A stretch of 28,204 nucleotides of DNA, from the IMG/VR virus record IMGVR_UViG_3300025308_000349, positions 1-28,204 of that record. One strand, written 5' to 3'. Source of the DNA: a virus. The position numbers and the translations under genes were made by a program. Each line of letters begins with the position of its first letter. Position 1 is the stretch's first letter. This document shows, in pieces, positions 2,992-28,204 of the stretch. The notes beneath the pieces are model-generated. The model ran no database searches. It saw only the letters and a program-made list of their open reading frames with translations, and was not told where the DNA came from.

Positions 2992-4127
2992 GCGTCGATC
3001 TCCAGCAATGTCAGAGTTGAAATTCCACGGCCGTTGTCGGCGTTGTCGGCATCGTTTTGCGAGCGGTTCACATATGCCGTTGTCCCTCCTTGGCCCGTCA
3101 TAGCCTGAACCTTGTAGGTCAACTCAGACGTAGAACCTGGAGAGTGAAGAAAGTGCGCAGTATGCGAGCCATAAACATAACTCGCATTGCCCACAGAAGT
3201 GATGGTCGATCGAGTGCGGGCGCTGGCGGCATCACCAATTCCAATTGCCGATACTCCGCTCAGGACAAGTTGCGCGTGTGCACTAACGGTTGACTGACCG
3301 TTGAGGGCGATGGACAGGATCGCCAGGATCTTGTTAGATGACTTTCTCGGCGTGATGGCAACCGACATGCCGGTGACGTCTACCATGCTTGTTGACGACG
3401 TGGAGAAGGTGTCCGTTTTAGTGACGGAGACAACCTGCACCACCTGGCCGGTGAGGTACGAGCCGCTGGCGGATGGAAGCGGATTGAGCAAAACCCAATC
3501 TGTCCCGTCATCCATGAACGCGCACAACTGGCCGGCCAGCCAGGTGGGGTTCGTCTTGGCGCCCGCGCTGGTGTACTGCTTGACTGACTTGGCGGTATCG
3601 CCATTCACAGCCAGTGTTGCCGCCACGCCAGCATTGGCGGCGTGCATCGTGGCATGCACGATCTTTGCGCCGCTGGTCGCCGGCGCCTGCGTGGCCACGA
3701 AGGCCGGCGCAGTGCCGGTGGTAGTGCAGGCGGTGGCTGCCAGCATCTGTGAATTTGCCGCAGTTGCAGAAGCGACGTTCGACCCGTCGCAAAAGAGAAC
3801 ATCAGAGGTGCCCTGCTTCAGGAATACCCCGGCGCCCGCAGATGTTTTGATCTTCAGGGAATAGGCGCCAGTGGTTCCGTTCACGATACGCCACTGCATA
3901 CCAGACGTCGGAACGATGACGTTGATGTTGGCCGTGAGAGCGCCCGTCAGGTTGATGATGCCGTTGTTTGCCTCGGCCGCCGAGAGCGTGACGTCGGCGC
4001 CGCCGGCCACGCTCTTGTTGAGCACGCCGCCGATGTTCTGCTGCAGCGAGTCGAAGCCCGCGTTGACGGCATTGGCCATGGCCAGGCCGCCGACGGTACC
4101 AGTGACTGGTACATGAATGTCTTGCAT
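2988..4127 (-). CDS. Tail fibre / receptor-binding protein candidate
   Basis: A 379-aa protein encoded between the gpJ-like hub gene and a fibre-assembly gene. The N-terminal section (MQDIHVPVTGTVGGLAMANA) probably attaches to the tail tip. The middle is Ala/Thr/Gly/Asn-rich and beta-structured (NNGIINLTGALTANINVIVP, GTSDVLFCDG, TDWVLLNPLPS). The C-terminal 150 residues start at VVQVVSVTKTDTFSTSST and include DVTGMSVAITPRKSSNKILA, a module recurrent in phage fibre tips and likely to bind the receptor. An AAGGA ribosome site 6 nt before the ATG overlaps the end of the upstream gene. The C-terminal coding part has lower GC (about 55% in the stretch counted by eye) than its neighbours, as expected for exchangeable host-range modules. 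Confidence 0.72.
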   Translation of the reverse strand: MQDIHVPVTGTVGGLAMANAVNAGFDSLQQNIGGVLNKSVAGGADVTLSAAEANNGIINLTGALTANINVIVPTSGMQWRIVNGTTGAYSLKIKTSAGAGVFLKQGTSDVLFCDGSNVASATAANSQMLAATACTTTGTAPAFVATQAPATSGAKIVHATMHAANAGVAATLAVNGDTAKSVKQYTSAGAKTNPTWLAGQLCAFMDDGTDWVLLNPLPSASGSYLTGQVVQVVSVTKTDTFSTSSTSMVDVTGMSVAITPRKSSNKILAILSIALNGQSTVSAHAQLVLSGVSAIGIGDAASARTRSTITSVGNASYVYGSHTAHFLHSPGSTSELTYKVQAMTGQGGTTAYVNRSQNDADNADNGRGISTLTLLEIDA

Positions 4128-4136
4128 GATGGTTCC

Positions 4137-7115
4137 TTAGTAGCCCTGAATTTGGACATTGACCGTGCGCATGACGCGCGCGCCGGTGTTGTAAACATCG
4201 ATAGCGCAGCCGCTGAGCGTGGGGCTGCTGATGACGATGTCGTCACCCGCCATAGCGCCAACAATCGTGCACTGCACGAGCGGAAGGCCGCCAGCACCAG
4301 CACCCCCGTTGAACGGCTTGCTGTAGGTGATTGGCGTAGCTGCGGACGCAGAGGTGACGGCTTGGTAGGGGTCGATCCGGTCCGGCACATCCACGCTGAA
4401 ATTGAGCGAAGTGATGAAGCCAGTGACCTGCGGATCGCTCGATGCCACCAGCAGCCGCGCCTTGAAATACCGGGCGTTGTAGAGGCCGGGCTGGTAGTTC
4501 AGCCACGGGCCGTAGACCGCGTCGTCACCTGCGGTGGCGATCTGCGCCTGGATGCCGATCTTTGCGCCCAGCGACGCGCCAAACAAATCCGACACGCCGA
4601 GCACGTCGGCCATGGCGAGGAAGTTGTCGTAGATGGACTGGCCGCGCGCCGTGTAGCTGATGCTCACCTGGCATGGTGCAACGCGGCCGATGTCCACCGT
4701 GTGCCCGGCCGGCAGGGTGTAGCTGCCGGAGGAGGCCACGCCGCCGAACCACAGCACATCCAGCAGCCCCAGGAAATCTGCCACACCCAAAATGTCACCG
4801 GCAGCGCCCAGCATAAGCTCGCCACCAACCAGATCGAGATTGCTGCGCGTGCCAGACCAGCTGGTGGCCGCCTCGTCCCACACGGCCACCACGTTGCGCG
4901 CCAGGGTCGCACCGGTGACCACTACTTGCGTGGGGTTGAGAGAATAGGCGCTGACGCCGCCGCTGGTCATGTAGTGCGCCGCTACCCAGTAGGTGCCATT
5001 GCCAGGCGGCGTGAAAGTTGGCAGCGGCGTGCGACCCAGAACTGTCGAACCGTCCCACGTGGCGCCGGCGCGGATCTCGTAGTTCACATCGGGCTGGCGG
5101 AAGTCACTCACTGCGTCCCAGTAGATCTGCTGCTGGCCACCCACGTAATTGGTGCCCACGCCGGTGAGGTCAGGCAGCGGCGACTGCAGGGCCGCGCCGG
5201 TGGGCGTGTAGGTGATGGCGCTCACGTCGGCCAGCGACTGCTGGGCGCCGCCATAGATGTTGCTGGCCGGCAGCTTGATGTAAAACTTCTGCCCGATCTG
5301 CGCTGCCGTGAATGGCAGCTTGAAGAACGCCTCGTCCACACGTGTGAACGAGGCCCCCACCGGATGGCTGACCACCGCCGTGTTATAGGCGCCACGGCGC
5401 AGGTAACTCAGCTCGTAACGGTTGGCGGCCACCAGGTTGGCGGTCTGGTAGCTCAACAACTCACCCTCCAGCACGCACAGGGTGGTCAGGCTGTCGGCGT
5501 CGGCCTGGCTGCCGCTAAGCAACTGGCCACGGCTCATGGACATGTCTGCCGTCAGGGTGTTGGTCACATCCGGGTCATCGCCGGCAGCCAGCGCCACCGC
5601 CAGCACGCCTTGGCGGGCCGGGCCGGGAATGTCGCCCACCTGGCGGTAGGTGGCCCCGTCCTGCGACACCCACACCTGCGCGCCGCCCCACAGCGGCCCG
5701 CCGCTGGTACCGATCCAGATCTCCAGGCCGTTGGTGGTCAGCGTGTCCGGCGCCTCGAATACGGTGGGCGGATTGCTGTCGCCCGGATTCGCGTTGTAGT
5801 TGTGCGAGAAGCCGCTACCGGCCGGCGCTCCGTAGGCCGGCGAGCTGGCCAGGCCAACTGGGCAATCCTCGGCCTCGATCTCGAAATCGCCTGCATCGGT
5901 CTCTGTGATGGTGTTGATGCGCACCGGCACGCGCGTCAGCGCCAGGTAGGCGTCTGTCACGCTCACCAGGTCCAGCGGCTCCAACAGCGCGAACGTCCAT
6001 GGCAGCGTGAATTTGTAGAGGTTGCGCACCCCCATCTCACGCTGCAGCAGCAGTGAGGCCAACAGCTCGGCCACGGCGGCATCACAGATGGCGTGCGCCT
6101 CAACGGTTTTCTTGGTGCGCAGCCCACGCACATCGATATCGGCGGCGTCCTTGCGCTCGGCGATCTCGGTGTTGTAGTCGTTGCCTCGGTTTGAATACTC
6201 GATGCGCACGTGGTTGTACACGTCATCTGGCGGCCGGCGCTCTGGGCGAAGGGGATCGGCGTCTGCGCTGTCGACGAGGAAGTGATCTTCCGTCAGGTCG
6301 TACACCGGCGTTGTGTTGGGTGTGTAGGTGGCGCCGTTGGCGGCACAAGCTGCATCGCCCAGGGGCACATACTTGAGCACGCCCTGCGACCAGGTCACAT
6401 CGGTGTTGCTCAGATCGAGCAGGTAGCGAAGCCACTCGGCGGCCGGCTTCTGCTGCAGCAGCGCGGGGCTGCCCACCAGGTTCTGCGCCAGGCAGTAGTT
6501 GGCCCAGGCGGAGAAGTCCCCCGCCTGGCCGGCCGGGAAACTGGCGCCAGCGCGCTGGTTGGTCAGCAGGTCCTGCGCAACCAGGGCCAGGTTGGCGTCT
6601 CCGGTGCTGACGGCCTCCCAGGCGGTACTGACCTCGAAGCTGTGGTTCTCGATCGACGCGTCGCCGCCCAGATCGTAGGCCGGCGTGTACATGTAGGCCA
6701 TGCCGCTGTAGCCCAGGGCCTGGGCCGGGTAGTTGGTGCTGAGGTAGCCCCATACCGGCTGCCCCAGTGCGCCGCCCACCAGGCTGAGCCCGCTGCTGGC
6801 GCTGTCGCCCGCCAGCTTGGCCTTGCCGCGCCAGACGGTGCGCACTGCGCTGACGGGGCCTTCGCCCAGCGCCATCATCACGGCGGCTGTGTAGGTGTAG
6901 GTGGTGTTGCTCTGCGTGATGCCGCCGCCACCCTTGCCGCCGCTGCTCTGCGTGGTGGTGTGCGGTATGGCCGCAAAGCCGCCGTACCAGAGCAGGTTGC
7001 CGCTGACGCGCAGCCGACCATAGAGCAGTGCGATGGCCGAGCCATAGACGGAGCTTTGTACCCGCAGGTTACCTGCTGCCGGCTCCACCGTGCTGATGGT
7101 GCTGCCGCCACTCAT
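4137..7115 (-). CDS. gpJ-like central tail tip / host-specificity protein
   Basis: A 992-aa protein, the largest in the window, in the place of lambda J after the NlpC/P60 gene. It starts MSGGSTISTVEPAAGNLRVQ and overlaps the stop of the NlpC/P60 gene (ATGA, 7112-7115). The N-terminal half has the features of phage hub proteins with a Phage-tail_3 type core (GSAIALLYGRLRVSGNLLWY, RYLLDLSNTDVTWSQGVLKY, AEDCPVGLASSPAY). The C-terminal half carries fibronectin-III-like and beta-rich segments (YWDAVSDFRQPDVNYEIRAG). It should form the tail tip below the tube, contact the outer membrane and hold the fibre encoded next. The alternative GTG/ATG start at 7214 would overlap the neighbour deeply and lacks support. 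Confidence 0.85.
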   Translation of the reverse strand: MSGGSTISTVEPAAGNLRVQSSVYGSAIALLYGRLRVSGNLLWYGGFAAIPHTTTQSSGGKGGGGITQSNTTYTYTAAVMMALGEGPVSAVRTVWRGKAKLAGDSASSGLSLVGGALGQPVWGYLSTNYPAQALGYSGMAYMYTPAYDLGGDASIENHSFEVSTAWEAVSTGDANLALVAQDLLTNQRAGASFPAGQAGDFSAWANYCLAQNLVGSPALLQQKPAAEWLRYLLDLSNTDVTWSQGVLKYVPLGDAACAANGATYTPNTTPVYDLTEDHFLVDSADADPLRPERRPPDDVYNHVRIEYSNRGNDYNTEIAERKDAADIDVRGLRTKKTVEAHAICDAAVAELLASLLLQREMGVRNLYKFTLPWTFALLEPLDLVSVTDAYLALTRVPVRINTITETDAGDFEIEAEDCPVGLASSPAYGAPAGSGFSHNYNANPGDSNPPTVFEAPDTLTTNGLEIWIGTSGGPLWGGAQVWVSQDGATYRQVGDIPGPARQGVLAVALAAGDDPDVTNTLTADMSMSRGQLLSGSQADADSLTTLCVLEGELLSYQTANLVAANRYELSYLRRGAYNTAVVSHPVGASFTRVDEAFFKLPFTAAQIGQKFYIKLPASNIYGGAQQSLADVSAITYTPTGAALQSPLPDLTGVGTNYVGGQQQIYWDAVSDFRQPDVNYEIRAGATWDGSTVLGRTPLPTFTPPGNGTYWVAAHYMTSGGVSAYSLNPTQVVVTGATLARNVVAVWDEAATSWSGTRSNLDLVGGELMLGAAGDILGVADFLGLLDVLWFGGVASSGSYTLPAGHTVDIGRVAPCQVSISYTARGQSIYDNFLAMADVLGVSDLFGASLGAKIGIQAQIATAGDDAVYGPWLNYQPGLYNARYFKARLLVASSDPQVTGFITSLNFSVDVPDRIDPYQAVTSASAATPITYSKPFNGGAGAGGLPLVQCTIVGAMAGDDIVISSPTLSGCAIDVYNTGARVMRTVNVQIQGY

Positions 7116-9026: not shown

Positions 9027-11468
9027 TCAGAATGCGAAGTCGCGCTTGCGGCTGGCCAGGACCTTAACCAAGGCGTCGCCGTTGTCGCGGAATAGCCGGG
9101 CCACGCTCTGCGCGTCGGTTGCGTGAACGTGGAGGGTGATGCCGCCACCCACGCCAGCACCTTCGCCACCATCGGCCAGGCCACGGATCACATCGGCATG
9201 CTTGGCTGGCAGCACCATCTCTTGCTCGTGCAACTGGGTCAAGGGGTTGAGGCCGGCCGGGATGTCGAAACCCTGGGAGGCGCTGGCCACTGGGGCAAAA
9301 GCCATGGCGGCAGCGGCCATAGCTGCACCGAAAGCGGGGGCGGATAAATTCAGTGGGAACGGCGCTGCGGCCATGGAAGCAACGCCGCCGGCCCCGGCTT
9401 TCGCGGATTCCTCAGCGATCTTTCCTATCGCCAAGGCTTTTCCGAAGACCTTCATCAGGAGCTGCTGCACCATCCACTTCGCGGCCATCTGAGCCAGCAT
9501 GCCGATCACGGCATCCGTGACAGCCTGGAACATGTTGCGAATGCCCTGCCCCAAGCTTTGCGTGCCCTTGGCCATGCCTGCCATGGCATTGGCCCAACCA
9601 CTCTCGATGTTGCCGAACATGCCCCGCAGCCGCGCCGTGTCTTCCAAGGTCTGCTGGTTGCGCAATTGGCTGATCTGCAGCTGGTGCTGTTGCTCCAGCT
9701 GGAAGATCTCGTTCTTGATGCGGGCGTACTCGACCGGGTTGAGGTTCGGGTCCACCATAGCCAGCCGTTGATCCAGGGCTGCGGACTGAATGGCGTATTT
9801 CTGCTGCTCGAACTGGCGCTCGCCTTCCAGCAGCTCGGTGCGGTTGATCAGCCCGGCGTCGTACAGAAGTTGCAGGTGCTGGCGCTCCAGCTCAACCTTT
9901 TGTGCATTCGCCGCCGCGGTTTCGGCAATCTCGATCTCGCGCAACTGACGGCGCTGGTCGCGCGCGGCGCGTTCGATGTCTTCGATCTTGCGCTGGGCGT
10001 CCTGGGCGGCTTTGCTCTCAGCCCCAAAGCGCTGGGTAACCAGCGCCAGTTCGCGGCGGGCCAGATCGGCCTTGAGGGTGAAGTTCTGCTCGGCCTCGGA
10101 CTGCTCGCGGTGCAGCTCTGCCAGGCGGGTCTCGAAAGCTGCCTTCTGAATCTCCAGCGTGGCAGCGGTGATCTTGGCCTGCACGCCGAAGGCGTCTTTG
10201 CTGCCGGCCGTAACGATGGCCTTCTTGGCATTCCAGAAGGCCAGCTCCTGCGCCTTGCTGAACTCGTAGTAGGTACCTTCGGCGGCGTTCTTGGCCGCAT
10301 GGGCCTGTTTGAGGGCGTTGAGCTCAGCGTCCCACTTGGCGAGCTGGGAGTCGGACTGCATGAGGCCCTTGGCGCTTTTCCCGCCCGCGCCTTTGGGGGC
10401 AGCGGCAGCCGTGGGCTGGCCCCACAGGTTGCTCACCTCTTTGAAGGTGCGCGCGCTGTCGGCCTTGACTTTGTCCCACACACCGGAGAGCTGGTCGCCC
10501 CAGCTGGCGAAGATGCCGCGCATGTCGTTGGCGGCACCTGTCATGTCGCCGCTGATGAGCTTGCGGATTGCGCTACCCAACACAAAGAGCGGGTCGGCCA
10601 GGGCTCGCAGAACATCCCACACGATCTTGAGCACCAGCAGGACGCCTTGCAGGGCCGTAGCCAGGGCGTTCACAGCCACCTTGAATGCAAATACCGCCGC
10701 CGGCATGGCGGCGGCGAACATTTCAGCCAGTTGGGTAAGGATGGGCATCAGCGCATCGCCCAGCACCTTCTTGATGGCGAGCATGACGTCACCCACGTCG
10801 TTCATGGCTGCGTTGTAGGCCTTGCTGGCCTCGACGTTCTCTTGTCCAACAACCAAGCCCAGCTCTTGCTGCTTCTGGCGGGCAGCCTCGATGACTTCGG
10901 TGTTGAGCTTGAGCAGGGATGACGACTCTTCAGCTCCCTTGCCCCACATCTGCTGGGCTGCGATATTACGGTCTAAGCCCTGCTTGTAGCTGTTGACAAC
11001 CTTGATGGAGTCCAGCATCAGGTCATTGAGAGGCCGCAGGTTGCCAGCGCTGTCGCGCGTCTGTAAGCCCATGCCCTGCAAGGCAGCCTCGTTGGTGCGC
11101 AGCTCCTTGGCCAGCTTACCGGCAGCGGCGGTGAAAGTGGCGACGTCGGCGGCGGTGGCGTCGGCGTCAGCGTTGATATCGCCTAGAGCTACGCTCAAGG
11201 CGCTGGCCTCGGTGGCGGTGGTGCCCAGCACGCGGGCGAGTTTGTTGGACTCGGCGGTGAATTTCTGAGTGGCATCTACCGACGCCTTGAGCATGGCACC
11301 GCCAGCCAGGCCGGCAGCGGCCACGGCCAGTGCTTGATTCATCTTACCGAAGACACCGGCCAGTTGTCCCTGCGCCGTGCTGGCCGCATCAACCATGCGG
11401 CGCATGGCAACCTCGAACGGGTTGATGTTGGCACCAACCTGGAAGCCTGTGGCTTGCGATTGACTCAT
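9027..11468 (-). CDS. Tail length tape measure protein
   Basis: An 813-aa protein in the lambda H position after the tail assembly chaperones; the start overlaps the T-frame stop (ATGA, 11465-11468). Features: N-terminal helical region with VGANINPFEVAMRRMVDAAS; a tape-measure core at about 70-240; a hydrophobic block at about 241-301 (ALMPILTQLAEMFAAAMPAA and LQGVLLVLKIVWDVL) that could enter the host membrane; a long charged coiled coil at about 400-620 (LARRELALVTQRFGAESKAA, QQHQLQISQLRNQQTLEDTA); and a Gly/Ala-rich C-terminus ending RDNGDALVKVLASRKRDFAF. By the usual 1.5 angstrom per residue rule the tail would be roughly 120 nm (estimate). The Gly/Ala-rich C-terminus also resembles lambda-H-type C-terminal regions. 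Confidence 0.9.
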   Translation of the reverse strand: MSQSQATGFQVGANINPFEVAMRRMVDAASTAQGQLAGVFGKMNQALAVAAAGLAGGAMLKASVDATQKFTAESNKLARVLGTTATEASALSVALGDINADADATAADVATFTAAAGKLAKELRTNEAALQGMGLQTRDSAGNLRPLNDLMLDSIKVVNSYKQGLDRNIAAQQMWGKGAEESSSLLKLNTEVIEAARQKQQELGLVVGQENVEASKAYNAAMNDVGDVMLAIKKVLGDALMPILTQLAEMFAAAMPAAVFAFKVAVNALATALQGVLLVLKIVWDVLRALADPLFVLGSAIRKLISGDMTGAANDMRGIFASWGDQLSGVWDKVKADSARTFKEVSNLWGQPTAAAAPKGAGGKSAKGLMQSDSQLAKWDAELNALKQAHAAKNAAEGTYYEFSKAQELAFWNAKKAIVTAGSKDAFGVQAKITAATLEIQKAAFETRLAELHREQSEAEQNFTLKADLARRELALVTQRFGAESKAAQDAQRKIEDIERAARDQRRQLREIEIAETAAANAQKVELERQHLQLLYDAGLINRTELLEGERQFEQQKYAIQSAALDQRLAMVDPNLNPVEYARIKNEIFQLEQQHQLQISQLRNQQTLEDTARLRGMFGNIESGWANAMAGMAKGTQSLGQGIRNMFQAVTDAVIGMLAQMAAKWMVQQLLMKVFGKALAIGKIAEESAKAGAGGVASMAAAPFPLNLSAPAFGAAMAAAAMAFAPVASASQGFDIPAGLNPLTQLHEQEMVLPAKHADVIRGLADGGEGAGVGGGITLHVHATDAQSVARLFRDNGDALVKVLASRKRDFAF

Positions 11469-11833
11469 GGCGTTGCCTCTGTGCTTGCGGGTGCGGGTGG
11501 GATCAGGTCAAACATGGGGTCGTTGGGGCGACCTGCGAAGGCCGGCATGCCGGCCATGGCGGCAGCTGTGGCGATGTCTTGCTCGCTACTGGGCGAACCG
11601 TGCACAGGCCCGTTGCTCATGCGCGGGGCGCCGGGTTGCGCGTTTTCTTTCAGGCCCAGGTACTGGGCAATGCGCCGCAGCTGAATGGCGGGTGGTGGGA
11701 CTTCCCGCCACCAGTCGCACAGGGCGAAGTAGGTGGGCAGGTCGCAGTGGTGCCGGACGTGTTGCCACGTCCAGCCCGTGCCGCTCACGATGTGGGCGAC
11801 GATGCGGTCCCAGTCGATTCCCCCAGCTTGCCG
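11465..11833 (-). CDS. T part of GT tail assembly chaperone (made by -1 frameshift)
   Basis: This is the -1 frame reached from the upstream G gene at the GGGGGGC site (11839-11833). The fused GT protein would be about 244 aa: 122 residues from G, then RQAGGIDWDRIVAHIVSGTG followed by WTWQHVRHHCDLPTYFALCD and WWREVPP. The segment with I-x-WD-x-I-V-A-H, G-W-T-W and W-R-x-x-PP is a familiar T-domain pattern in siphophage chaperones. The natural protein sequence continues well upstream of the GTG at 11788, which argues that frameshifting and not independent initiation is the main route. GT recruits tube protein to the tape measure during tail assembly and is not in the virion. The stop overlaps the tape-measure ATG. 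Confidence 0.82.
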   Translation of the reverse strand, partial: RQAGGIDWDRIVAHIVSGTGWTWQHVRHHCDLPTYFALCDWWREVPPPAIQLRRIAQYLGLKENAQPGAPRMSNGPVHGSPSSEQDIATAAAMAGMPAFAGRPNDPMFDLIPPAPASTEATP

Positions 11834-12198
11834 CCCCCCTGGGCGGCGCTGCCGACGGCCTGCGCCTGGAGCTGCTTGCGGATGAGGCCAGAGACGTCCA
11901 ACGCAGCCTGGAAGAATTCGACCATGGTGTCCACGCCTACGTGTTCTGCCAGCGCCTCTGCGCTGATTTCTGGGTAGTTGCGGGCCAGCGCCTCGGTGAG
12001 GACAGCAATGATGAGGTCGACACCTTCACCGGAGAGCTCGATCTGGCCGCCGGCCTTGGTGGCAAACTTGTCGATACCGGCCGAGTGGCGCTTGAGCGTG
12101 GCCAGGCTGCACGGCGGCAAGATATAGGTCTGCCCGCCGAGCTGGATGGGGATGCCTTCCAGCGCGGGGGTGCCCGTGGGTTGCGGGAGTTGAAGCAT
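11785..12198 (-). CDS. Tail assembly chaperone G
   Basis: A 137-aa acidic-to-neutral helical protein starting MLQLPQPTGTPALEGIPIQL, located between the tube protein and the tape measure. The start at 12198 lies 2 bp after the tube-protein stop, so it is probably reached by re-initiation. The sequence GGQTYILPPCSLATLKRHSA is typical of short tail chaperones that begin with a small beta unit, followed by helices (VDLIIAVLTEALARNYPEIS). The last 15 codons, after the slippery site, are low-complexity (GKLGESTGTASSPTS), as expected of a frame-0 tail that matters little. The longer form is GT. Confidence 0.83.
   Translation of the reverse strand: MLQLPQPTGTPALEGIPIQLGGQTYILPPCSLATLKRHSAGIDKFATKAGGQIELSGEGVDLIIAVLTEALARNYPEISAEALAEHVGVDTMVEFFQAALDVSGLIRKQLQAQAVGSAAQGGGKLGESTGTASSPTS
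11833..11839 (-). other. -1 ribosomal frameshift slippery site GGGGGGC
   Basis: On the minus strand the heptamer GGGGGGC is phased as G-GGG-GGC relative to the G frame (codons 120-122, CAG GGG GGC). Both tRNAs can re-pair with GGG after a -1 slip. Frame 0 stops 15 codons later (TGA at 11787-11785), while the -1 frame opens into the conserved T domain. This is the X-XXY-YYZ form and the location used for G/GT synthesis in lambda and most long-tailed phages. Confidence 0.82.
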
Positions 12199-12200
12199 GG

Positions 12201-12968
12201 TCAGTACTGGCAGATGTAGCCCACGCTGCCGGAGGCGTCGGCAAAGGCCTCGGCGTCCATGTCGTTGGTGGTGAAGTCGTCGTTCTTGAACGGCAGGGCC
12301 AGCTTGCCGAGCACGCACTGGTTGAGCTTCATGGCCAGGGTTTTGCCAGCGTACTGGTTGTAGAAGATGGCACTGAAGGTGGGGGTGTAGCCCATCAGGT
12401 TGTTGCTGATGGCAAACAGATTGCTGGTGGGGCTGCTGGCGATGCTGTACTCGTAGCTGATGAGCACAGCCATGCTGGCGTCTGCCGCTGCAAAGGTGTA
12501 CACACCGGTGGCAACGTTCAGGCTGTATTGCCCCGTGGCCGGTGCGCTGGCCACGCGGGTCATGGGCACGCCCGTGGCTGCGTTGATGACGCCCAGATCT
12601 GCCACAAACACACCACTTGACGGCGGCGTGATGGTGACGGTGTACGGACCTGCAGCAGCGGGGACGGTCTTGGCCTCGTCGATCACAGCGGCCTTGCGGC
12701 TGGCAGTGGGGTTGCTACCCAAGAAGAGTGACCCGAGCGCGGCGCCGTTGAAGTCGCCACTCTTGGCCTTCCAGCCGATCTTGGCCTTGCCGCGGGCGAC
12801 CGCCACCGGGAACTGTTTTTCGCCGTGCAGGATCTTGGTCTCGAAGTCGAAGTCGACCGAGACGTCCTGCAGGATGGCGATGGCCACCGGTGTGGGGTTG
12901 GCGATAACAGCGCCCGACGCATCTTGCGTGGGCACGGCAATGAGCTTGCCTGCTCCAAAAGTGATCAT
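12201..12968 (-). CDS. Major tail tube protein
   Basis: A 255-aa, beta-rich protein in the lambda V position. It starts MITFGAGKLIAVPTQDASGA with an AGGAG ribosome site 8 nt upstream of 12968. The N-terminal part has the tube-fold pattern LQDVSVDFDFETKILHGEKQ and AVARGKAKIGWKAKSGDFNG. The central section (VFVADLGVINAATGVPMTRV then TGVYTFAAADASMAVLISYE) is typical of phage tail tube subunits of Burkholderiales prophages. The C-terminus (KLALPFKNDDFTTNDMDAEA) probably faces the next ring. About 200 copies would polymerise around the tape measure. The upstream reading to 13106 has no ribosome site and poor composition. Confidence 0.87.
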   Translation of the reverse strand: MITFGAGKLIAVPTQDASGAVIANPTPVAIAILQDVSVDFDFETKILHGEKQFPVAVARGKAKIGWKAKSGDFNGAALGSLFLGSNPTASRKAAVIDEAKTVPAAAGPYTVTITPPSSGVFVADLGVINAATGVPMTRVASAPATGQYSLNVATGVYTFAAADASMAVLISYEYSIASSPTSNLFAISNNLMGYTPTFSAIFYNQYAGKTLAMKLNQCVLGKLALPFKNDDFTTNDMDAEAFADASGSVGYICQY

Positions 12969-22881: not shown

Positions 22882-25308
22882 TTACAGCGGCAGGTCATCA
22901 TCCTCGCTCGCTTGAGGCCCAGTGAGGGCCTCATTGGGGTCCACAGGCGCGGTGTAAGGCACAGCCTTCGGGGGCGGCGGGGGCCGGCGTTTCCAGCCGC
23001 GCAGGCGCCCACCCGTGGTCTCTCTGTGCTTGTCGAAGCCCAGCGCCCTCATGGCGTTTCCAATGCGCGTGTCCATGTTGCCGGCGCCATCGATCCGGTC
23101 TGCCTTGATGAGCAGCGCTTTCTCGTAGATCTCCACCGTGGTGAAGAAGTCGCGCCTCGCGTTCACCGGCAGATCAGGGTTATCGTGCTTATCCGGCTTG
23201 CTCCGATTCACATACAGGTCGATCATGTCCTCCCAGGTGTCGGTGCGCTTGAAAGGCTCATGCTCGGGGAATACCAGCTCGTGTTCCTCTTCCTTGGTGG
23301 GCCAATAGCGTTCACCAGCTTCCAGGCGATGTAGGGCCTCAGCGAAGAGCTGCAGCCGTATGCCAGCCAGCACGTCTTCATTGACCACGTGCACCTCTAG
23401 CGGCCAGAAGCGCCGGTCGCCAGTAGCGTCCTTGAGGAAAGTGTCCGCATTGGTCGTGCCCACATTCACCGCGTGTCGCTTCGCCCTGATCAGCTGTGCG
23501 CCATAGGGTGGCCGGAACATGTCTTCCTGGGCCGACAGAAACTGCTTGATCTGCGTGGTTTCAGACTTATTGAGCGACTCCAGCTCAGCCGATTCCGCGA
23601 TCCATACCAGCTGCATAGCCATCAGCGAATCCTTGTCGCCCATGCGGATCGCGTTGTCTGTGAAGAACGGGTAGGCCAGCGCGCGGAAGGCGGTGGACTT
23701 CTTCAGGCCCTGCTCACCCTTGATGATGAGCATATAGTCGAACTTGCAGCCAGGCTGCAGCGCCCGCTTGACGAGGCCCATGATGAAGCACTTGCCGATC
23801 AGCCTGGTGTACGGCCGCTCCTCGATCTCGTACACATCCGTCAGCCAGTGCTCAAGGCGCTCCGTGCCATCCCATGGCTCGGCCCTGATCAAGTCATGTA
23901 CCGGGTTGTACTTAGCCGATCGCGCCGCCATCAGCACGCCATTGCGCAGGGTACTCGTGGCCTTGACGGCAAGACGGTGGGTCCGGAGCAGATATTCCCC
24001 CAGCATCAGATCGTCTTCCTCGTTCCACTCCCCTGCTGGATGGCCCCATGGGGTTGGCTTCACGCGCTCGATAAGGTGGGTGAAATCGTTCTGCCGCACC
24101 ATGCCCTGCAGGTTCGGGTCAAGCTGCAGGCAGTACATGACGTTCTCACGGCAATCCATCGGCCGCCCCCGGTGTTTGACCAGGTGCGCCAACACGTCCA
24201 CATCACCATCCGGGTCGTCGGCGCCTGGCGGCTCACCACCGCCGTGGCCACCGCCACCACCAGATCCTCCCGCGTGGTCCGCATCCCCAGCGGGAGCGGA
24301 ATCGTTCGCGCGTGATGGTTTTCGCTTGCGCGGCTCTGGCGGGGTCAGCTCGATCCCGAGACGCTGCGCAAGCCAGTGCAAGGCATCCTTCGGCTTCGAG
24401 GCCGGGAGCCACTCCATGACCAGGTCAATGGGTGTGCGCCCCCCTTGGCGCGCATCGTGCATGTCAGCCACACCGAAGTCCTTGATGCCCACAGGCATGA
24501 TGGACAGGTCTTCCTGCAGATCACGCCTCAGCGCCTTGCTGGTGACGCGGTAGCCCTGCCCTTTCGGGATCGCCTTGGGGAAGAGTGTCGGCACCCAGGC
24601 CTGCAGGGCTTGCATCGCCGCCTCATTCACGCGACGGAAGTCATCACTGCCTGACGGATCAGGCTGCGCCGCACGCGCCGATGCTGGTGCGCTTGCTGGC
24701 TTCGCAGCGGCCTTGCGCGACTCCTTTGCCTCCTCGATCGTTGCGTGCATGCGCCTCAGCGCCCCTTCGGGCGCCTGGCGCACCTCTGCAGGCGTGTTGG
24801 GCAGGTGTCGCCCCGTCACCGTGAAGTACTGCTTGTTGCAGAACATCTCCACGCCAATGTCGTTGCTCTTGGCCGTCTCGGTTTTGCCCAGTACGTAGAG
24901 GTGAAGCCCCTTGCCACTCGGGGATACCTCGGTGAAGGTATCGAAGGCCTCAACGATGCCCCGACACCGCGGCGACATCTCGCCCGTCTCGGCGTCGTAT
25001 TGCTTGTCGATGTCGATACCAATCAGCCCGTCGTCAGGCAAGAAGGCAAAGCCAATGCCGCTCCACCCTCCCCGTTCAAACACCCGGCGCACTACTTGCA
25101 GGATGGCCAGGCGCATCCTGTCGCGGTCAGAGCCCTGGTCACCAGCGCGCCGCCCGCCCATCGGGTAGTACGGCACCTTCAACCAGGACTCGCGTTTCTC
25201 ATCCCACTCGTACTTCCACAGCAGCCACTGCTGCCGCCCCGCCAGCTCGGCGGGGATGTTGTCCCACACCGGAGGCGCGACCACCGGAGCGATTTGCTTG
25301 TTTTCCAT
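22882..25308 (-). CDS. Primase-helicase replication protein, VapE-type
   Basis: An 808-aa protein with two parts. The N-terminal part is primase-polymerase-like: KVPYYPMGG, GIGFAFLPDDGLIGIDIDKQ with Asp99/Asp101 as candidate metal ligands, and SPSGKGLHLYV at 129-139, the SGKG-x-H signature of AEP-type primases. A Gly/Ala linker (about 330-370) joins it to a VapE-type superfamily-3-like helicase domain with Walker A GEQGLKKST (531-539), Walker B region LVWIAESAEL (567-576), and GTTNADTFLKDATGDRRFWP. It probably primes and unwinds at a nearby origin. The start at 25308 (MENKQIAP) is preferred because it avoids a 47-bp overlap with the upstream gene; neither start has a good ribosome site. Confidence 0.87.
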   Translation of the reverse strand: MENKQIAPVVAPPVWDNIPAELAGRQQWLLWKYEWDEKRESWLKVPYYPMGGRRAGDQGSDRDRMRLAILQVVRRVFERGGWSGIGFAFLPDDGLIGIDIDKQYDAETGEMSPRCRGIVEAFDTFTEVSPSGKGLHLYVLGKTETAKSNDIGVEMFCNKQYFTVTGRHLPNTPAEVRQAPEGALRRMHATIEEAKESRKAAAKPASAPASARAAQPDPSGSDDFRRVNEAAMQALQAWVPTLFPKAIPKGQGYRVTSKALRRDLQEDLSIMPVGIKDFGVADMHDARQGGRTPIDLVMEWLPASKPKDALHWLAQRLGIELTPPEPRKRKPSRANDSAPAGDADHAGGSGGGGGHGGGEPPGADDPDGDVDVLAHLVKHRGRPMDCRENVMYCLQLDPNLQGMVRQNDFTHLIERVKPTPWGHPAGEWNEEDDLMLGEYLLRTHRLAVKATSTLRNGVLMAARSAKYNPVHDLIRAEPWDGTERLEHWLTDVYEIEERPYTRLIGKCFIMGLVKRALQPGCKFDYMLIIKGEQGLKKSTAFRALAYPFFTDNAIRMGDKDSLMAMQLVWIAESAELESLNKSETTQIKQFLSAQEDMFRPPYGAQLIRAKRHAVNVGTTNADTFLKDATGDRRFWPLEVHVVNEDVLAGIRLQLFAEALHRLEAGERYWPTKEEEHELVFPEHEPFKRTDTWEDMIDLYVNRSKPDKHDNPDLPVNARRDFFTTVEIYEKALLIKADRIDGAGNMDTRIGNAMRALGFDKHRETTGGRLRGWKRRPPPPPKAVPYTAPVDPNEALTGPQASEDDDLPL

Positions 25309-25321
25309 CGATTTTTTTAAG

Positions 25322-25603
25322 TCAACGCCACCCAGCCATGCACCCTGCCAGCTCGTGCCAGCAGGCACCGTCGGCTAGGTCATCCAGCACACTGGCTGGC
25401 TCGTACACCGCTACCGGCCGGCGTGCATGCGGCCGGGGTTCGAGCTTGTATTTCAGCTCGCCCGAACGCACACAATCGCTCAGCACCTGGCGCGCCTTCG
25501 TGTAGTCCACTCCGGTCAGGCGCACCACATCACGCAACTCGGCCCGGCCCGTGGTCTGGATCGTGTCGACGATCGAGCGGCGGGCTTCACTTTGCGGTCG
25601 CAT
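25322..25603 (-). CDS. Small winged-helix DNA-binding protein
   Basis: A 93-aa protein with a winged-helix or MarR-like pattern: RRSIVDTIQTTGRAELRDVV, then RLTGVDYTKARQVLSDCVRS, then GELKYKLEPRPHARRPVAVY, where the last strand looks like the wing. The stop is 13 bp before the primase-helicase start and the start overlaps the upstream small gene. It may help loading or control of replication. Only the fold class is inferred. Confidence 0.6.
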   Translation of the reverse strand: MRPQSEARRSIVDTIQTTGRAELRDVVRLTGVDYTKARQVLSDCVRSGELKYKLEPRPHARRPVAVYEPASVLDDLADGACWHELAGCMAGWR

Positions 25604-25886
25604 GCGCCACCCCCATTCCCCATCGGTCCAGGTCTGCCTGGCGTCTCGCCTCCAGATCCTGTCGTTCTTTCACTCGTTGGCCCCACTGATGGGGGTGCCA
25701 GGCCAGCCGGCATCGATTGGCCACGACCGGTGACAGGGTGAGCTGGCCGTCTGGAACCTCGCGGGCCCGGTGCACGTCCACGTGGTGGAAAAGGCACTCG
25801 CCGGGGCTTTGCTCAAGAAGCAAGGCAAAACGGCCGCTGAGCAACCGGTAGACGCCGCCGACCTCAAGCGGGCTGGCGGGCTTCAT
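25587..25886 (-). CDS. Hypothetical phage protein
   Basis: A 99-aa protein beginning MKPASPLEVGGVYRLLSGRF, predicted beta-rich at first (RFALLLEQSPGECLFHHVDV) and helical and charged later (QRVKERQDLEARRQADLDRW). Its ATG overlaps the CII-like stop (25884-25888) and its 3' end overlaps the winged-helix gene by 17 bp. No family is recognised. It is co-transcribed with the early replication genes. Confidence 0.55.
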   Translation of the reverse strand: MKPASPLEVGGVYRLLSGRFALLLEQSPGECLFHHVDVHRAREVPDGQLTLSPVVANRCRLAWHPHQWGQRVKERQDLEARRQADLDRWGMGVAHATAK

Positions 25887-26272
25887 CAGCTGACTGCCCG
25901 AATGCCGCCACGCACCTGGATATGGTCGAGCGCCTTCATCGCTCGCTCCATGGTGCTTGCAGCGTTGTTGATAACCTCCACCAGCTTGACTGCTTCGTCC
26001 TCTGGCGCCTTGCGGTCTGGCCGAGCATGCAACGTATCGTCACAGGCGTGGTACAGCGGGTCGTACCTCTCGCAATACTTCATGAGCCGGAGCACCTGGC
26101 CAAACGTCAGGCGCTGATCACCCGTCGGGCTGCAACACTCCTTGAGCCGGGCGTAGGCCGACTCCGGCTTCATGTCCGGGAAGATGTGCGCCGCCACCAG
26201 CTTGAACGGCTTGCCACTCTCGCCAATCGCCGTAGCAATGGCATCAAATTCGTCGTCGTAGAACAGCTTCAT
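25886..26272 (-). CDS. CII-like phage regulatory protein
   Basis: A 128-aa protein starting MKLFYDDEFDAIATAIGESG, with a GGAGG site 5 nt upstream. The segment KPFKLVAAHIFPDMKPESAY followed by ARLKECCSPTGDQRLTFGQV resembles phage regulatory proteins of the CII/CP76 type: an N-terminal helix-turn-helix that expects paired helices, then a C-terminal oligomerisation helix. It is the first full gene of the leftward early operon after the Cro-like gene, the same slot as lambda cII. Activation of lysogenic promoters is therefore a reasonable inference. Its start region overlaps a 34-codon leader ORF and lies downstream of a structured RNA segment, which may control its translation. Confidence 0.62.
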   Translation of the reverse strand: MKLFYDDEFDAIATAIGESGKPFKLVAAHIFPDMKPESAYARLKECCSPTGDQRLTFGQVLRLMKYCERYDPLYHACDDTLHARPDRKAPEDEAVKLVEVINNAASTMERAMKALDHIQVRGGIRAVS

Positions 26273-26493: not shown

Positions 26494-26760
26494 TTAGGTG
26501 GCCGCGCTTGTTTCACCGGACCCGACCTGCCGCGTCAGTTGCTCTGCCAGCTCGGGCCAGATCTCGCCGCCATCCCGACGGCGCAGCGCCAAGCGCAGAC
26601 CAACAATCCCGGCCTCACGCTCGACACGCACGGCGTCTGCCGGCTTCATGTCCTTTCGGCCAGACAGGCACTGGTACAGGTATGCAGCATTGACCCCCGT
26701 CTTTTCGACGATGACGCTGCGCTCTTCAGCACTGAATTCGGTCTTCATGTTCGCCATCAT
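26494..26760 (-). CDS. Cro/YdaS-like regulator
   Basis: An 88-aa DNA-binding protein with a helix-turn-helix of the YdaS/Cro type: EKTGVNAAYLYQCLSGRKDM followed by KPADAVRVEREAGI. The C-terminal third (RRDGGEIWPELAEQLTRQVG) is polar. It is the first gene of the leftward lytic operon, directly downstream of the three-operator region and opposite the CI-like gene, the arrangement of lambda cro. It probably represses the repressor promoter. Starts at 26760, 26757 and 26748 are possible; none has a good Shine-Dalgarno, and the first overlaps an operator. Confidence 0.75.
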   Translation of the reverse strand: MMANMKTEFSAEERSVIVEKTGVNAAYLYQCLSGRKDMKPADAVRVEREAGIVGLRLALRRRDGGEIWPELAEQLTRQVGSGETSAAT

Positions 26761-26819
26761 AGCGATTCGCTAAGACTTTGCAAGCGATTCGCTAGATGCA
26801 AATATATAGCGAAATGCTA
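26760..26819. promoter_or_regulatory. Three-operator control region between Cro-like and CI-like genes (OR-like)
   Basis: Three palindromic 13-mers with consensus TAGCGATTCGCTA lie at 26760-26772 (perfect), 26782-26794 (one change) and 26807-26819 (TAGCGAAATGCTA). Centre distances are 22 and 25 bp. A weak rightward promoter for the repressor fits TTGCAA (26778-26783) with AT-rich -10 candidates at 26801-26808; a leftward -10 candidate TATATT overlaps the same AT block. Each promoter would be covered by an operator, as at lambda OR. Confidence 0.82.
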
Positions 26820-26829
26820 GAAACTCGAT

Positions 26830-27300
26830 ATGGAAACAAAAGACGAGCGTCGACGCAGGAAACTCCAGCTACTTGTCGCTGGAGTTACAGGTGGTCTTGA
26901 GACCATTTCCGTGCGCTCAGAAACTAGCCCGCAGTACCTTCAGCAGATCATTAAAGGCGTATTGCTTCCGCCAAAGAAAGATGGCACCCGCAGCCCACGC
27001 AGCTTGGGCGATGCTGCGGCCGAGGCTATCGAAGACGCCTTTGATCTGGGACGCGGCTGGTTCGACTCAGACCGCCCGCTCCCTACCGTCGAGCCACCAA
27101 AGATCGCAGAACGCGCGCCCAGACCATACCCCAGCAAAGACTGGCCCTTTACAGAGTTCACCCAAGAGGAATATGCCCTGCTGGATACTCAGCAAAAGGG
27201 CCTTGTCGAGAGCATGATCGTTCAATTCATCAAGACCCGCGAACCCCCAGCAAAACATCAGCCGCCCGCGAACAACACCACCAAGGCCGGAGCAGCTTGA
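26830..27300 (+). CDS. CI-like phage repressor lacking an S24 peptidase domain
   Basis: A 156-aa protein divergent from the Cro-like gene. The N-terminal basic stretch ETKDERRRRKLQLLV is followed by a helix-turn-helix (ETISVRSETSPQYLQQIIKG) and the block SPRSLGDAAAEAIEDAFDLG with RGWFD, known from repressor DNA-binding domains in Burkholderiales phages. The C-terminal part (EEYALLDTQQKGLVESMIVQ) could be a dimerisation helix, followed by a Pro/Ala tail. There is no LexA/S24 self-cleavage domain, so induction cannot be by RecA-stimulated autocleavage of this protein. It should maintain lysogeny by binding the 13-bp operators on both sides. The start has no clear ribosome site. Confidence 0.75.
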   Translation: METKDERRRRKLQLLVAGVTGGLETISVRSETSPQYLQQIIKGVLLPPKKDGTRSPRSLGDAAAEAIEDAFDLGRGWFDSDRPLPTVEPPKIAERAPRPYPSKDWPFTEFTQEEYALLDTQQKGLVESMIVQFIKTREPPAKHQPPANNTTKAGAA

Positions 27301-27402
27301 GCTCTTCGGCGCCCAGATTTACTGCTTTCATACCTACAAGAGCAGCCGGGCGAGTCGTTTGGGAGAGAGAGTCCATAATCGAATTAATCAGGAGGAGATA
27401 CG

Positions 27403-27804
27403 ATGAATAAAGCCTTCGCCGCCTTACTGGCAACCGTCCTACTAGCCGGGTGTGCAGCATCAGGCGTCCAGGTCTCGAAGGACGCCGCCCTACAGTTCAA
27501 GGAGGGCGTTACTACCGAAGCCGAGATCTTGGAGAAAATGGGCCGGCCTACCACCATCATGCTGAGTGGAGATACCAAGGTCATCGCCTACAGCGGCATG
27601 CAGTACCAGGTTAAAGGCGCTACCTTCATCCCGATCGTTGGGGCCTTCGCAGGTGGATCAGACTTCAATCTCACATCAGTCACCTATGAAATCGACCCCA
27701 ATGGGGTGCTAAAGAAAGCGACATACGCCCAATCTAGCGGTGGCAATCGCATGGGGACTACTCCCGTTGAAATGTCGCCAACTGAGCCTCGGGCCGTCAA
27801 ATGA
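27403..27804 (+). CDS. BamE/SmpA-like lipoprotein in the immunity region (moron candidate)
   Basis: A 133-aa predicted outer-membrane lipoprotein. Signal peptide MNKAFAALLATVLLAGC with lipobox L-A-G-C (Cys17). The mature part FKEGVTTEAEILEKMGRPTT and a following beta hairpin (TKVIAYSGMQYQVKG, VTYEIDPNGVLKKATY) follow the BamE/SmpA-type pattern, where a helix pair packs on a small sheet. A strong AGGAGGAG site precedes it and a terminator follows, so it is a self-contained unit between the two operator clusters, in the position of lambda rex. Prophage lipoproteins here are often expressed in the lysogen; a role in superinfection exclusion or envelope change is inference. Confidence 0.72.
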   Translation: MNKAFAALLATVLLAGCAASGVQVSKDAALQFKEGVTTEAEILEKMGRPTTIMLSGDTKVIAYSGMQYQVKGATFIPIVGAFAGGSDFNLTSVTYEIDPNGVLKKATYAQSSGGNRMGTTPVEMSPTEPRAVK

Positions 27805-27820
27805 GAAACTGAATTCAACA

Positions 27821-27848
27821 AAAAAAACCCGCTACGGCGGGTTTTTTT
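27821..27848 (+). terminator. Intrinsic terminator after the lipoprotein gene, bidirectional
   Basis: CCCGC (27828-27832) and GCGGG (27837-27841) close on the loop TACG, giving the very stable C(UACG)G tetraloop. Seven A precede the stem and seven T follow it (27842-27848), so it can work on either strand. It separates repressor-lipoprotein transcription from the second operator-promoter. Confidence 0.92.
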
Positions 27849-27868
27849 GCGCCTCACTGAAAAATATT

Positions 27869-27914
27869 TAGCGAATTTGTAGCGATTCGCTTGACACGTT
27901 GTAGCGATTCGCTA
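27869..27914. promoter_or_regulatory. Second operator cluster (OL-like)
   Basis: Two clear copies of the 13-mer lie at 27880-27892 (one change) and 27902-27914 (perfect), centres 22 bp apart as in the first cluster; a degenerate half-site (TAGCGAATTTGTA) is at 27869-27881. The pair flanks the -35 and the spacer of the rightward promoter, so repressor binding would block it. Confidence 0.82.
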
Positions 27915-27918
27915 AACA
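27891..27918 (+). promoter_or_regulatory. Rightward early promoter (PL-like)
   Basis: A consensus -35 TTGACA (27891-27896) lies between the two operators. A -10 candidate TAAACA (27913-27918) follows after 16 bp and overlaps the second operator. The transcript would lead into the partial gene at 27962. The -35 is perfect, the -10 is mediocre. Confidence 0.65.
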
Positions 27919-27961
27919 ATCCACTCCAACCCGCCACCCACCGGCGGGCAAGGAGCGAAAA

Positions 27962-28204
27962 GTGCAGACATCCACACAACCGCGCGCCAGGCGCGGCGTG
28001 CCCCGGGGCCATAGCGCCCCGGTAGCTCTCAGCCCTGCAGCAACCAAGCTGATCCAGCAGATCGAGGCCGAAGCCCGGGCCAGGCTGCTCGAAGACTTAA
28101 GCGCCAAGGACGGCATCACCGTCCTGCACCCACTGGATGCCGACACCAAGCGTATCCACATCGAGGGTGACGACATCCACATCCGTGACGGCCGGGGCGG
28201 CAAC
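27962..28204 (+). CDS. Partial early protein of the second (rightward) operon, start of gene
   Basis: A GTG-started ORF, open for 81 codons to the right edge. An AAGGAG ribosome site lies 6 nt upstream. The protein begins VQTSTQPRARRGVPRGHSAP, then has LSPAATKLIQQIEAEARARL (helical) and IHIEGDDIHIRDGRGGN. No family is recognised. As first gene of the repressor-controlled operon it takes the place of lambda N or of the first recombination-side gene. Confidence 0.7.
   Translation, partial: MQTSTQPRARRGVPRGHSAPVALSPAATKLIQQIEAEARARLLEDLSAKDGITVLHPLDADTKRIHIEGDDIHIRDGRGGN

Follow-up and report, generated by a model that had tools for sequence, protein, structure and literature searches.

The window analyzed here, 28,204 bp of DNA, is the entire virus record IMGVR_UViG_3300025308_000349. 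To the left of its regulatory region lie tail, head, portal and terminase genes together with a VapE-type primase/helicase gene, and these phage-type genes mark the source, by gene content, as a tailed phage or prophage, of which the record is probably an incomplete copy. No close DNA relative of the window was found in the phage collection. The regulatory region contains a gene for a Cro-like regulator of 84 aa (26494..26748, minus strand), a divergent gene for a CI-like repressor of 156 aa (26830..27300, plus strand), an accessory lipoprotein gene in the rex position (27403..27804, plus strand), an intrinsic terminator (27821..27848), and the first gene of a rightward operon (27962..28204, plus strand), which is cut by the end of the record. 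Several operators (OR1–OR3) lie between the divergent repressor and Cro genes, and a second cluster (OL1/OL2) with an outward early promoter (TTGACA) lies beyond the repressor operon, both being traits of lambda-type (lambdoid) immunity regions. A gene in the cII position after cro (25886-26272, minus strand, phrog_24214) shows 69% DNA identity to a gene in the equivalent place of Shewanella phage QDWS, and an ORF adjoining the VapE-type primase gene (25322-25603, minus strand) weakly resembles Ren-like exclusion proteins (phrog_142, E = 6e-6).

The sequence-only reading had described a 13-bp palindrome in two clusters, with three sites between the Cro-like and CI-like genes and a 22-bp spacing common to both clusters, and our analysis bears out each of these points. 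Exact copies of the palindrome (TAGCGATTCGCTA) are present at OR1 (26760..26772) and OL2 (27902..27914), and copies with one mismatch at OR2 (AAGCGATTCGCTA, 26782..26794), whose center lies 42 bp upstream of the cI start, and at OL1 (TAGCGATTCGCTT, 27880..27892), which runs into the −35 element of the rightward promoter. The third site between the two genes, OR3 (TAGCGAAATGCTA, 26807..26819), is degenerate and overlaps the predicted cI promoter. The sites are spaced by 22 and 25 bp in the OR cluster and by 22 bp in the OL cluster. Exact matches to the 11-bp core AGCGAWTCGCT number four in the window (at 26761, 26783, 27881 and 27903), and form two pairs with members 22 bp apart. For this core, a first-order Markov model predicts 0.017 exact sites and about 5e-8 pairs spaced 20–24 bp by chance.

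A search for further copies, as had been suggested, left the core at these four places only in the 28.2-kb record. Outside the five sites, position 25288 holds the only other copy of the core with one mismatch, and no further match to the 13-bp palindrome with ≤2 mismatches was found elsewhere in the record. Likewise, a 14.7-kb piece of the near relative (L009) contained none besides these four sites at ≤1 mismatch. Of the elements that the same reading had placed on the rightward promoter, the two clear sites stand; the additional half-site (27869-27881) has three mismatches, and is probably not functional, because it overlaps OL1 and is found otherwise only in the near-identical locus L006. 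All five full sites and the half-site are identical between the window and L006, over a divergence of 9% of bases in the cI and lipoprotein genes and 16% in the stretch from the lipoprotein gene to OL. OR3 is thus unchanged in L006, and has a degenerate equivalent in L021, L026 and L027. The palindrome was absent from the literature searched, apart from one unrelated plant CRISPR paper; the operator sequence is new relative to that literature, and the immunity layout is already known.

The Cro-like protein was assigned to the YdaS family by family profile and by fold comparison. The family profile retrieved YdaS of CP-933P (PDB 8co2/8c7k) with E about 1e-14 in hmmsearch, and the predicted structure had 8co2 as its best match, with a modest Z of 5.8 and 30% identity. 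Seven of the nine aligned relatives match Pfam YdaS (PF15943), the window protein alone being without a Pfam match. The repressor matches a transcriptional regulator family (phrog_5736, E = 9e-7) and consists of a HTH domain followed by short C-terminal helices. Its N-terminal HTH domain, predicted with good confidence, is most similar to SPC32H Rep (Z = 10.1, 22% identity over 72 residues) and also matches P22 c2 and the 434 repressor, which by structural modeling places it in the lambda/P22/434 class. A Pfam search revealed no Peptidase_S24 domain in the window repressor; the repressor of L026, which has the same operators as the window, retains one. The recognition-helix regions of CI and Cro have a common L..Q pattern (for example, QYLQQIIKG and AYLYQCLSG).

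A search of 50,697 phage records gave no match to the window repressor or the Cro-like protein. The repressor of the relative L023 matched only the lambdoid CI of Stx-phage/mEp506, with weak similarity (34% over 80 residues), and the mEp506 region showed no operator cluster of a comparable kind. The description of the proteins as unrelated in sequence to those of lambda is too simple in view of the YdaS-family Cro, the HTH fold and the CI similarity of L023.

To investigate the occurrence of this arrangement, 2.9 million viral contigs were scanned for the operator pair, yielding 14 stretches in 12 contigs. Homologs of the window repressor are present in 7 of the 12 contigs, including a near relative (96% identical). 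Two of the seven (L008/L024 and L012/L020/L025) have an identical immunity region and were counted once. Six further distinct loci, among them L021, which came from a protein search alone (see below), combine the same operators with repressors 42–49% identical to that of the window and a YdaS-type Cro. In L010 and L013, a clear YdaS-type Cro adjoins a longer repressor. L017, L018 and L019 match the operator pair without such a repressor/Cro gene pair. The pair in L019 (9857-9889) has the geometry of the cro promoter, adjoins another XRE-type regulator gene near a pilin-like gene, and is possibly a prophage remnant or edge. L018 contains an array of about seven related palindromes of the TAAGCGAAACGCTTA type (3146-3377) upstream of a ribbon-helix-helix-like gene, which looks like a separate repeat system.

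Most of the viral loci came from the scan for the operator pair, and count as evidence for the co-occurrence of proteins and promoters rather than for the presence of operators. A protein profile run against the viral contigs recovers the same seven, and this result is circular, the profile having been built from those contigs. Only L006, L021 and 28 distant homologs are independent of the operator pattern. A scan of the genome collection with the window protein alone returned nothing, and the protein profile returned one locus, L021, in a Methylibium MAG contig from this different collection. Relative to its cI, L021 has OR sites at −72, −49 and −24 and OL sites at +1399 and +1422, and these OR and OL pairs are the only pairs in its 4.2-Mb genome. 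The operator pair was found in none of the other 398 of 399 genomes searched in the order of L021.

A protein search of the same genomes gave 28 distant CI homologs, and in these the 180 bp before cI carry TAGC-N5-GCTA (one mismatch allowed) at 18 times the density found elsewhere, with sites recurring near −75, −49 and −25. About half of the 28 have no TAGC-type site upstream, and several are weak or partial matches. The window operator thus appears to belong to a broader TAGC-N5-GCTA class that would accompany this repressor superfamily. As a control, QDWS, which shares the gene after cro with the window but has a different repressor and Cro, carries no such operators at its switch.

The promoters are interlocked with the operators. 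A consensus scan identified the cro promoter (TTGCAA-16-TATGAT, 26756..26783, minus strand), with OR2 overlapping the −35 and OR1 the −10 element, and the rightward early promoter (TTGACA-18-AACAAT or 16-TAAACA, 27891..27920, plus strand), which occupies the matching position in relatives. In all eight loci, OR2 extends into the −35 element of the cro promoter, and OR1 into its −10 element. The outward promoter is arranged alike in all seven loci whose contig reaches OL: OL1 extends into its −35 element (CGCTTG), and OL2 into its −10 region. A predicted PRM-like cI promoter, read from the sequence, has an extended −10 element (TGCTAGAAA, 26815..26823, plus strand) that lies 6 nt before the cI start, with a weak −35. 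This element is common to the window, L006, L023, L026 and L027, and overlaps OR3 in the window. The terminator (hairpin −17.8 kcal/mol, z = −5.1, followed by a U-tract) closes the cI–lipoprotein unit ahead of OL. The lambda-like order of the region, proposed from the window alone, recurs in the relatives whose repressors are 42–49% identical, together with the outward promoters and the terminator that precedes OL.

The starts of both regulatory genes lie close to their promoters. The cI start is about 5–8 nt past a TAGAAA-type −10 element in most loci, and the cro start codon is 5–7 nt past the −10 element in 8/8 loci (7 nt in the window). The window cro most likely starts at 26748 rather than at 26760, because the latter falls within the predicted −10 element. 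Across the loci, no convincing Shine-Dalgarno sequence was found before cI or cro, the one five-of-six match, at L027 cro, lying inside the −10 element. The first OL gene does have a Shine-Dalgarno-like site in both the window (AGGAGC, 5 nt before a GTG) and L006. Given the short distance from −10 element to start, the cro mRNA is predicted to be leaderless, as is the cI mRNA. Leaderless mRNAs have been reported for both cI and cro of PY54 (PMC4488713) and for paaR2 of CP-933P (PMC8630535). The distance of 42 bp between the center of OR2 and the cI start in the window is not general: L023, L027 and L028 depart from a spacing of 42–44 bp, and cI autoactivation may therefore not be general among the relatives. 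The 42 bp of the window is also the value for OR2 and PRM of lambda.

The slot between cI and OL varies in content. The window lipoprotein (phrog_3135; lipobox LAGC judged by eye) has no solved relative by sequence, and an impression that it is a BamE-like protein found no support. A role in the envelope of the lysogen, superinfection exclusion for example, is plausible. In relatives, by inspection by eye, other genes occupy this slot: L026 has a lipoprotein-like ORF there, L023 has signal-peptide and membrane-like ORFs, and L024 has one of zinc-ribbon/membrane-like type. A small and apparently homologous protein, also recognized by eye and absent from the window, is encoded right after cI in L021 (3873-4133), L026 (4900-5157), L028 (4518-4796) and L023 (about 4547-4834).

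Beyond OL, no family match was found for the first gene of the rightward operon (27962..28204). Comparison of this gene (27962-28204) with its counterpart in L006 (7131-7538, a DUF7673 protein) shows that the identity, 84–97% upstream, collapses at the first codons, which places an apparent module boundary directly behind OL. Further along the rightward operon of L006, the ORFs at 9239-9853 and 11315-12271 are identical to each other over about 70 residues (QHCVEIYRPRSSAPP...GFQVNGK), with two similar ORFs between them, which has the appearance of a partial gene duplication.

The operators, the promoter geometry, their conservation and the protein families are established computationally, and with them we consider the region very probably to be a lambda-type immunity switch. 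In the mechanism that we propose, the CI-like protein (26830) would bind the AGCGAWTCGCT operators, presumably as dimers, occluding the cro promoter at OR1/OR2 and the rightward early promoter at OL1/OL2, so that both early operons would be off in the lysogen. CI would be expressed as a leaderless mRNA from its weak extended −10 promoter beside OR2, and the degenerate OR3, overlapping this promoter, would limit the CI supply. The YdaS-type Cro would compete for the same sites, probably occupying OR3 first and shutting off cI in lytic growth. The lipoprotein of the rex slot would be made in the lysogen, where it is probably an envelope or superinfection-exclusion factor. The absence of an S24 C-terminal domain means that the cooperativity, looping and RecA-induced cleavage of lambda cannot simply carry over, and induction would probably proceed through an antirepressor or another route instead of RecA-driven self-cleavage. 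We infer from sequence the DNA binding of each protein, the order in which sites fill, autoactivation, leaderless translation, the induction route and looping.

Three other readings of the palindromes were weighed. That they serve as iterons in replication or as targets of a regulator from the host, and are not operators of the phage, is very improbable: such elements can also be repeated palindromes at helical spacing, and the pair pattern does match the variant palindromes of the longer L018 array, but in all relatives the sites lock onto two opposed promoters beside a repressor/Cro pair, and the pair is missing from 398 of the 399 genomes searched in the order. We regard it as unlikely, yet far from negligible, that the CI-like protein is the sole user of the palindromes, with the Cro-like protein acting only at OR3 or elsewhere and no lambda-style competition for sites. 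The Cro of PY54 binds only OR3 (PMC4488713), the window Cro-like protein lacks its own Pfam YdaS match, and the overlapping PaaR2 and YdaS footprints in CP-933P leave the exact sequences open (PMC8630535); on the other side are the L..Q pattern common to the recognition-helix regions of CI and Cro, and the repression of PR, PRM and PL by CP-933P YdaS (PMC8630535).

The evidence is most nearly balanced, with chances slightly short of even, for OR and OL acting independently and without looping, in which case OL would just put a second early promoter under the same repressor. The window repressor lacks the C-terminal domain that mediates octamer formation in lambda CI, and the distance between OR and OL ranges from 993 to 1783 bp among relatives, both of which fit independent action. 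PaaR2, however, is another short repressor and forms octamers (PMC8630535), and the sites of a pair are 22–23 bp apart, roughly two turns of the helix, a spacing that suggests cooperative contacts side by side.

Within the lambda-type reading, we suggest, tentatively and at somewhat less than even likelihood, that these loci represent a distinct immunity group of temperate phages, present in at least part of the Burkholderiales. Its members would have a strictly conserved composite module at both early promoters (an operator fused to TTGNNN, then an operator fused to TANNAT) and leaderless cI and cro, and their repressors would have dropped the S24 domain or exchanged it for another, with a single operator code retained. 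If so, phages with different induction routes could share immunity, and cross-immunity between L026 (with S24) and the window (without S24), which share an operator, is directly testable. The operator sequence also offers testable predictions for environmental temperate phages, whose repressors are barely recognized by current family libraries. Immunity regions of this kind can be found by sequence alone, the pair having matched one of the 399 genomes searched in the order, at the right locus.

The results confirm that repressors unlike that of lambda also occur in the lambda layout. Like lambda, the window has the order cro, OR, cI, accessory gene(s), OL and outward early operon, and three OR sites; unlike lambda, it has two full OL sites, shorter operators of 11–13 bp, a YdaS-type Cro and no S24 domain in the repressor. 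The top structural match of the repressor HTH domain, Rep of Salmonella phage SPC32H, was solved with the antirepressor Ant (PDB 5d4z, 5d50); no antirepressor was identified in the window, and the confident comparison concerns the N-terminal domain only. In the Rac prophage, the repressor gene racR is also divergent from ydaS, with three palindromic repeats between them that are bound by RacR; the repeat differs (GCCTAA/TTAGGC), and the parts of that report consulted describe no OL-like cluster (PMC5700373).

The closest known systems are N15 immB and the PaaR2/YdaS region of CP-933P. Among the immB regions of N15, phiKO2 and PY54 (PMC4488713), that of N15 has 3 OR and 2 OL sites; these regions differ from the window in operator sequence, in the neighbor of OL (upstream of repA in N15) and in having a Cro of another group. 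In CP-933P of E. coli O157:H7 (PaaR2/YdaS/YdaT; PMC8630535), PaaR2 and YdaS have been shown by experiment to bind the same operators between their genes, and to hold PR and PL repressed. The operators are 18-bp inverted repeats (GTTTAGTAA), four in the OR region and three at PL, and the cargo is a toxin–antitoxin pair, unlike the shorter sites and the lipoprotein gene of the window. The repressor mRNA, leaderless in CP-933P, is predicted to be so in the window. The likeness is one of layout and of the YdaS Cro: in each, the gene of a short CI-like repressor diverges from that of a YdaS Cro, operators cover the two promoters, the cargo between the repressor gene and PL varies, and a second operator cluster lies with PL beyond the repressor operon.
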